41,611 nt of DNA, taken from assembly GCA_030616605.1 (NCBI GenBank), contig JAUWWY010000002.1, positions 182,867 to 224,477 of the forward strand, written 5' to 3'. The translations under genes and the position numbers were made by a program. Positions within the stretch are counted from its first letter, which is position 1, and each line of letters begins with the position of its first letter. The notes beneath the pieces are model-generated. The model worked only from the letters and a program-made list of their open reading frames with translations, did no database searches and was not told where the DNA came from. The stretch is from a bacterium (GTDB taxonomy: Bacteria > Patescibacteriota > Minisyncoccia > Minisyncoccales > CG1-02-41-26). Shown in pieces: positions 21,824 through 23,502 of the stretch.

Positions 21824-22729
21824 ATGGAGTTTAAAAAAAATGTTCTGTTGAAAAATTATACCACCTTTAAAATTGGGGGAAGAGCAAAATATTTTTTAAA
21901 AGCAAAAACAAAAGAAGAACTAATTAAGGCAATTAAGATTGCTGAGCAAAAAAAATTGCCTTTTTTTATTTTGGGCAAAGGAAGTAATTTATTGGTTTCT
22001 GATAAAGGATTTAATGGATTGGTAATAAAAATAGAAACTAGAGACTACAAACTAGAAACTGACAAAATTTATGCCCAGGCCGGAATAGAACTAGCCCAAA
22101 TAGTAGATTTTGTGGCAAAAAAATCGCTTACTGGTTTAGAATGGGCAAAAGGGATTCCCGGAACAATAGGAGGAGCTATTTTTGGAAATGCTGCTGCTTT
22201 TAAAAATTCAATAGGAAATTTTATTGAAGAAGTAGAATGTCTTGAGATTGAACCCTCTTTAAAGGTTCAACCCCCCAAAATTAGAATCTTCAATAATAAA
22301 GATTGTGAGTTTAACTTCAAAGATAGCATTTTTAAAAAAAACAAAAATCTCATAATTCTCGCTTGTATAATTCAGCTAAAAAAAGGAGACAAGAAAGAGA
22401 TTAAAAAAAAGATGAAATATTTTTTAAATTATAGAAAAAGAAGTCAACCTTTAAAATTTCCCTCAGCTGGCTGTGTGTTTAAAAACCCCCTTAGAATTCC
22501 GACAGCAGAATTAATTGATAAATCTGGCTTAAAAGGGAGAAAAATTGGCAGAGCCATGATTTCCAAGAAGCATGCGAATTTTATTATCAATCTGGGAGGG
22601 GCTGAGGCAAAAGACGTTTTAAAACTGATTAATTTAATAAAAAAAGAAGTCAAAGAGAAATTTAGAATTGAACTTGAAGAAGAAATATCAAAAGTAGGGG
22701 TTGACATCTCTTCTTATAATTTGGAATAA
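21824..22729 (+). CDS. murB: UDP-N-acetylmuramate dehydrogenase
   Basis: NYTTFKIGGRAKYF, LGKGSNLLVSDKGFNGLVI, GIPGTIGGAIFGNAAAF, PSAGCVFKNP; start set at MEFKKNV rather than the TTG at 21755. Confidence 0.94.
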   Translation: MEFKKNVLLKNYTTFKIGGRAKYFLKAKTKEELIKAIKIAEQKKLPFFILGKGSNLLVSDKGFNGLVIKIETRDYKLETDKIYAQAGIELAQIVDFVAKKSLTGLEWAKGIPGTIGGAIFGNAAAFKNSIGNFIEEVECLEIEPSLKVQPPKIRIFNNKDCEFNFKDSIFKKNKNLIILACIIQLKKGDKKEIKKKMKYFLNYRKRSQPLKFPSAGCVFKNPLRIPTAELIDKSGLKGRKIGRAMISKKHANFIINLGGAEAKDVLKLINLIKKEVKEKFRIELEEEISKVGVDISSYNLE

Positions 22730-22822
22730 TAATATAATAACTAAAATTTTTTGAGCAGATAGCTAAAGCTCAAGGGGCAAAAAGTCGACTATTTGCTAAA
22801 AATTAAATATTTCTAAAAACAA

Positions 22823-22876
22823 ATGCCAGCAAAAAAGAAAAAAAAGAAAGTCGCAAAGAGAAAGAAGAAGAAATAA
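22823..22876 (+). CDS. 17-aa lysine-rich micropeptide MPAKKKKKKVAKRKKKK
   Basis: ATG...TAA reading frame in a structured intergenic region that ends in an intrinsic terminator. Confidence 0.5.
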   Translation: MPAKKKKKKVAKRKKKK

Positions 22877-22965
22877 GAACCTGCTCGCTTCGTTCGCAGA
22901 ACCTTGTTTTCGGCAAGGTAAAAGATTGTATTCCGAAAATAGAAACATTTTAGAAAGCTTTCTAA

Positions 22966-23016
22966 AGTCTCGTTCTCTGCTCTATCTGATTTCTTAGAGA
23001 ACGAGACTTTTTATTT
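22966..23016 (+). terminator. Strong intrinsic terminator
   Basis: AGTCTCGTTCTCT ... AGAGAACGAGACT (13 bp perfect stem) then TTTTATTT. Confidence 0.9.
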
Positions 23017-23064: not shown

Positions 23065-23502
23065 ATGAGAATAGTCATTAAAGCAACAAAAGTAAATCTG
23101 ACAGAGAATTTGCGAGAATTGATTCAAGAAAAAATTTCAAGTTTAGAAAAATTCTTAGAAGAAATTTTAGAAAAAGAAGATATTTTTGATGGTCAAAAGC
23201 CGAGAACAGAAGCTTTCGTTGAGGTCGGTAAACCCTCAGCTCATCATAGAAAGGGAAAGGTTTTTTATGCCGAATGTCAGATTCCTCTACCCGGAAAAGA
23301 ATTGAGAGCAATAGCTGAAAGAAAAAGTTTGGAAATGGCAATTACTGAAGTTAAAGATGAGTTGCAGCGTCAGTTAAAAAAGTACAAAGGAAGTCAAAAA
23401 GCTCAACAGAAAAGAAATCAAAGAAGAGCAAAAAAAGATTTCAAAATTTCAAAATCAGCTAGATTTTATAGAAAAGGAAGAATAAGAGAAGAAGGAATGT
23501 AG
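23065..23502 (+). CDS. hpf: Ribosome hibernation-promoting factor / sigma-54 modulation protein family
   Basis: MRIVIKATKVNLTENLRELIQEKISSLEKFL; VEVGKPSAHHRKGKVFYAECQIPLPGKEL. Confidence 0.9.
   Translation: MRIVIKATKVNLTENLRELIQEKISSLEKFLEEILEKEDIFDGQKPRTEAFVEVGKPSAHHRKGKVFYAECQIPLPGKELRAIAERKSLEMAITEVKDELQRQLKKYKGSQKAQQKRNQRRAKKDFKISKSARFYRKGRIREEGM

Follow-up and report, generated by a model that had tools for sequence, protein, structure and literature searches.

The interval between murB and hpf

The stretch analysed here (the window) comprises 41,611 nt of contig JAUWWY010000002.1 (positions 182,867 to 224,477) from a bacterium of the order Minisyncoccales (Patescibacteriota), whose genome is of the Paceibacterota type and measures 0.63 Mb. 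Between murB and hpf, the gene of the ribosome hibernation-promoting factor, lies an open reading frame (ORF) for the lysine-rich peptide MPAKKKKKKVAKRKKKK. By comparison with related genomes it is a micro-gene, with a promoter close to where murB ends, a covarying leader hairpin, an ORF under selection and, as is usual, a terminator-like hairpin (Table 1). The names murB and secA were assigned by reading the translations.

A first-pass annotation of the DNA had proposed the promoter with its 18-nt spacing and the short polybasic ORF, and both are borne out. The promoter agrees with the consensus at 11 of 12 bases and carries an additional TG. The peptide has 12 Lys and Arg among its 17 residues instead of the 13 counted before, and the intrinsic terminator is present with arms of 15 nt, not 13. 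A simple terminator scan missed this hairpin because only loops of 3–8 nt were allowed. The RNA structure that is conserved precedes the ORF and had not been singled out; the annotation had drawn attention to several hairpins between ORF and terminator, part of which (22871–22941) is a copy of an unrelated dispersed repeat that folds at the level of shuffled sequence (z = -0.35).

Table 1 Features of the micro-gene unit and its 3' neighbour (positions in the window)
Feature	Position	Strand	Remarks
Promoter	22701..22730	+	Overlaps murB 3' end; TTGACA 22701-22706, spacer 18 nt, AATAAT 22725-22730 preceded by TG; 11/12 consensus bases; aligned counterpart in relatives
Leader hairpin	22754..22797	+	Arms AGCAGATAG 22754-22762 / CTATTTGCT 22789-22797; loop core AGTCGA 22783-22788
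Lysine-rich peptide ORF	22823..22876 (incl. stop)	+	Encodes MPAKKKKKKVAKRKKKK; orthologous ORFs in relatives; Lys codon bias
Dispersed repeat copy	22871..22941	+	Overlaps 3' end of the unit; outside the conserved gene
Intrinsic-terminator-type hairpin	22964..23010	+	Perfect 15-nt arms 22964-22978/22996-23010; loop 17 nt; then T-rich tail; z = -3.64
hpf (ribosome hibernation-promoting factor)	23065..23502	+	Neighbour; PF02482 and TIGR00741 above cut-off

Coding selection and the leader hairpin

A search of related genomes for short lysine-rich ORFs near murB or hpf revealed orthologues in most of them, and the ORF and an RNA structure are both conserved. In a sample of 100 genomes, drawn from the same family and order, at least 58 carry the ORF, a tally over the loci read that covers the loci found with a model of the hairpin, the hpf loci and, where available, the DNA that follows murB. 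In most relatives Lys/Arg-rich ORFs are again present after murB, and at the hpf loci of relatives they lie, equally short, upstream of hpf. Lys/Arg-rich ORFs other than the micro-gene were seen in only about 1–2 % of random 350-nt segments, a background that was read from the peptide list since random segments overlap true loci, and that is not a clean null.

The orthologous peptides are 9–71 aa long, mostly 9–36 codons, and consist for 57 % of Lys and for 10 % of Arg; the remainder is, with single exceptions, Ala, Thr, Val, Pro, Ser and Gly. Aromatic residues are absent and acidic residues almost so. The 60 distinct ORFs, open frames that share a start region of the type MA/MV/MP-K, use AAG for 52 % of their Lys codons, compared with 21.6 % in longer ORFs at these loci. 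Dicodons of the type AAA-AAA make up 15 % in the 60 ORFs versus 59 % elsewhere, and the longest A-run measures 5–9 nt. Such a pattern is to be expected if accurate translation of a polycation is under selection. The ORF is almost certainly a real protein-coding gene. The proposal that the AAA/AAG run is a slippage or stalling device was rejected, because the Lys codons are mixed in such a way that the A-runs are broken. Two variations on the ORF were observed. In G039 (loci L013/L052) tandem lysine-rich ORFs of 18 and 30 aa follow one leader hairpin, and in two related genomes of genus g42 (L038, L123) the position after murB, again behind a similar promoter, is taken by a small ORF that is acidic and Asp/Glu-rich instead of lysine-rich.

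Upstream of the ORF, the loop core RGUYGR or a close variant (GGUCGA, AGUCGA, GGUCGG, GGUUGA, GGCCGA) is present in 57 of 65 leaders versus 14 % of shuffled sequences, and a flanking stem of at least 7 bp in 37 of 65 versus 0.8 %. The stems vary by clade, with arms such as CAAAUAG/CUAUUUG, UGACAG/CUGUCA, CAGCAG/CUGCUG, GAUGGU/ACCAUC, UGAUAA/UUAUCA and GCAAGUAG/CUGCUUGC. An alignment of 22 rows contains compensatory changes at all seven pairs (26 cells), and its covariation score was reached in 0 of 500 shuffles. Because the rows had been cut within the loop and picked with knowledge of the stem, the percentage of paired positions is inflated; it is the double changes that are informative. Support from covariation is weaker in a set of closer relatives, whose stems are nearly uniform in sequence. 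In the window species, with its 26-nt loop, a competing hairpin is also possible. A terminator-like hairpin follows 55 of the 65 orthologous ORFs in a permissive scan. The micro-gene thus has a gene-specific structured leader with compensatory changes, a trait of autoregulated genes of the ribosomal-protein type.

It is very unlikely that the locus is only a non-coding RNA or a DNA operator with an ORF incidental to A-rich sequence. The loop motif is indeed better conserved than the peptide sequence, and the stem seen most often is nearly palindromic at the DNA level. An ORF of that kind would not account for the codon bias against A-runs or for 60 open frames with a conserved start, and an operator was rejected since the arms still pair across loops of about 6 to 40 nt. 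A known RNA family was likewise rejected: Rfam 15 gave no match at its gathering threshold at the window locus or at 19 related loci. A dispersed or mobile element was rejected too, the leader element and the gene being single-copy per genome and the repeat being limited to 22871–22941. This repeat of about 70 bp (AAGAACCTGCTCGCTTCG..CGCAGAACCTTG..TTTCGGCAAGG..) recurs in the genome as ten additional partial matches (loci L002-L008).

A covariance model of the leader hairpin matched 30 of the 100 sampled genomes, with a Lys/Arg-rich ORF within about 110 nt at 29 of the 30 loci; it misses the hairpin of the window itself because the loop there is 26 nt long. At the level of the class, at least 12 of 383 genomes matched when the best 20 candidates per genome were considered, and at least three of these 12 are chance matches without an ORF. 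Beyond the order, a single genome of the class, G179, clearly has the gene, in the arrangement rplL, regulator, micro-gene, hpf, secA (names from reading of the translations), and in 27 other genomes from the phylum no micro-gene was found next to murB. The exact hairpin pattern occurs at 24 sites over 84,980 species, and the ORF follows at 18 of them. Where the lineage is named, these 18 belong to Paceibacterota, Pacebacteria, Nealsonbacteria, Wildermuthbacteria, Parcubacteria or Patescibacteria. The ORF is missing at the remaining six, which come from Lactobacillus, Pseudomonas, an acidobacterium, a lentisphaerium and two metagenome-assembled genomes.

Neighbouring genes and transcription

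The upstream neighbour of the micro-gene is nearly always murB, and the downstream neighbour is hpf, secA or a polyamine gene. The last group includes genes for AdoMetDC, spermidine synthase, the pyruvoyl arginine decarboxylase PvlArgDC and deoxyhypusine-synthase-like and BpsA-like proteins. The adjacency to hpf, which the first-pass annotation had found suggestive, holds insofar as hpf is a frequent 3' neighbour; with secA or polyamine genes in its place elsewhere, the tie is positional. The view that the unit is transcribed separately and is not an hpf leader was supported. At L074 the gene is on the + strand between two genes on the - strand, and at L113 its orientation is opposite to that of murB and secA, and it is convergent to murB. 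Since it is convergent to its 3' neighbour in both genomes, it is able to exist as an independent unit and is more than a leader of hpf.

These arrangements bear on the possibility of a leader-peptide attenuator, in which ribosomes on the Lys/Arg run would sense lysyl- or arginyl-tRNA or polyamines and gate passage through the terminator into hpf or polyamine genes. The his and trp leaders are amino-acid attenuators of this type, in which a short ORF with a run of the sensed residue precedes a terminator. The micro-gene resembles them in its shortness, in the repetition of one residue and in the terminator behind it, and in many loci the terminator-like hairpin begins shortly after the ORF. 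Some genomes without the ORF are fragmentary; in others (G028, G073, G074, G031) the same type of promoter lies directly before hpf or PvlArgDC, as attenuation would allow. At L025 no hpf promoter is visible after the terminator, and partial read-through from the micro-gene into hpf is possible in some genomes such as this one. At L011, L023 and L028, however, hpf has a good promoter of its own. Unlike the his and trp leaders, the micro-gene is not always co-oriented with the gene that follows and stands alone in some genomes, its 3' neighbours vary (hpf, secA, AdoMetDC, ArgDC), and its ORFs run to 71 codons that are basic throughout, which exceeds the needs of sensing. No antiterminator fold was identified, albeit that no systematic fold search of whole transcripts was made. 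Attenuation is an unlikely account of the unit. At L011 and L028 the -10 box ends 6–7 nt before the ATG of hpf, which suggests that the hpf transcripts are leaderless in these genomes.

AdoMetDC is encoded in 33 of the 100 relatives, by coordinates within about 2.5 kb of the murB/hpf cluster in 23 of the 33, and 3 of these 23 clusters have no micro-gene. A dependence of the micro-gene on polyamine synthesis was rejected, since AdoMetDC is lacking in the window's genome as well as in 67 of the 100 relatives; the tie to polyamines is positional only. The clustering of polyamine genes beside hpf in the order (23 relatives, e.g. L051, L053, L055, L058, L066) may in its own right reflect a link between polyamine synthesis and ribosome hibernation.

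Proposed function and the ribosomal RNA

The explanation that is favoured, with a probability of about 0.6, is that the peptide is a nucleic-acid-binding polycation under the control of its leader. A disordered, lysine-rich polycation would bind nucleic acid, most likely ribosomal RNA (rRNA) or ribosomes and otherwise the nucleoid, and might act as a counter-ion or compaction peptide. Such a role would be consistent with the hibernation and polyamine genes that are often encoded nearby. The leader hairpin would be a cis-regulatory element of the micro-gene alone, most simply a site of feedback or translation control. Judged from its composition, binding of the peptide to rRNA or other nucleic acid, which the first-pass annotation had put forward, is plausible. 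That annotation is thus confirmed in what it observed and partly supported in how it read it.

Several points weigh against this explanation. The case for transcription, translation and binding is one of sequence comparison. Comparisons with Pfam, NCBIfam and solved protein chains gave no homology to a protein of known function, and the range of 9–71 aa together with the loose sequence makes a specific structure unlikely. Some leaders have the linear motif alone, with no stem around it. At the places looked at, about 40 % of the sampled relatives are without such a gene, which is therefore not essential to the lineage.

A polycation of this kind has counterparts among the histone H1-like proteins (Hc2/HctB of Chlamydia, BpH1, AlgP), with which it has in common a low-complexity make-up of Lys, Ala, Thr, Val and Pro and a strong variation in length. 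Hc2 ranges from 165 to 237 aa, its length varying via Lys-rich pentamer repeats (PMC2848022). The micro-protein differs from Hc2 in its much smaller size and in its conserved leader hairpin. One longer member scored below the HC2 cut-offs (PF07382, 12.1 bits versus 40, E 0.21; NF038052, 10.4 versus 135), and the others gave no match.

The smallest ribosomal proteins, eL41 and bTHX, are of about 25 aa, dominated by Lys and Arg, and bind nucleic acid by charge. The micro-peptide is similarly small and basic, whereas it is without a sequence match to them, and its incorporation into ribosomes would be hypothetical; a 60-aa form did not match eL41 or bTHX chains up to E 1, a comparison limited by low complexity. 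Leaders of autoregulatory ribosomal protein genes have a gene-specific hairpin in the 5' untranslated region before the gene of a basic protein. The leader described here likewise has one hairpin, with a loop motif that recalls rRNA segments; it differs in having no Rfam match, and binding of the peptide to it is putative only.

The likeness to rRNA suggests that the leader loop itself may contact RNA, either by pairing with the loop of helix 26 (h26) of the 16S rRNA (UGUCGACC) or by imitating a motif just 3' of 16S. The apical loop of h26 is UGUCGACC (AUCGACC in G179) in every genome in which it could be read, and UCGACC is exactly complementary to GGUCGA. However, a single 6-mer match is no more than chance would give in about 4.5 kb of rRNA, the motif is short and self-complementary, the first base of the core is often a non-pairing A, and leaders with GGCCGA do not fit. 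As for mimicry, 16 of 21 genomes have GUYGRY in the first 60 nt downstream of 16S, versus 9 % of shuffled sequences, but the variants in leader and trailer mismatch within genomes. CCUCC is missing from the 16S ends that were read, and either contact would tie synthesis of the peptide to the 30S subunit in cells without a normal anti-Shine-Dalgarno sequence, which is compatible with the favoured explanation of a leader-controlled polycation. Such pairing or mimicry is suggestive only, and its involvement is doubtful. Equally doubtful is a fuller version, in which a lineage-specific, 30S-linked micro-protein would help to fold or protect pre-16S rRNA or hibernating ribosomes, while the leader, imitating the 16S-3' motif and docking on h26, would report free or immature 30S.

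Two observations concern the rRNA and initiation in these genomes. The 16S 3' ends (loci L204-L233) lack the CCUCC core, reading GGAUCAUUUCUUU in the window's genome and GGAUUAUCUAAUC in G025, and a Shine-Dalgarno-like sequence is present at 2 of 23 gene starts in the window; the order seems to have lost Shine-Dalgarno initiation. In the 16S-23S spacer (L204-L233), GUGUCGRCU just after 16S is followed by AGGUGU-U[GGUCGA]-ACACCU..[UCGACC], an element that resembles a pseudoknot and has complementary changes (AAUCGA/UCGAUU, GGUUAG/CUAACC, GAUCUCG/CGAGAUC).

In conclusion, the comparisons point to a micro-gene that many families of a large uncultured bacterial group have kept, together with its promoter, its covarying hairpin and, in most cases, a terminator. 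It falls outside the models of Pfam, NCBIfam and Rfam, and the open-access literature searched holds nothing on it. With mostly 9–36 codons it is near or below the usual length limits of gene calling, an example of how annotation can overlook extreme micro-proteins. It provides a defined target for studying how minimal cells without normal Shine-Dalgarno sequences manage ribosomes, polyamines and quiescence.
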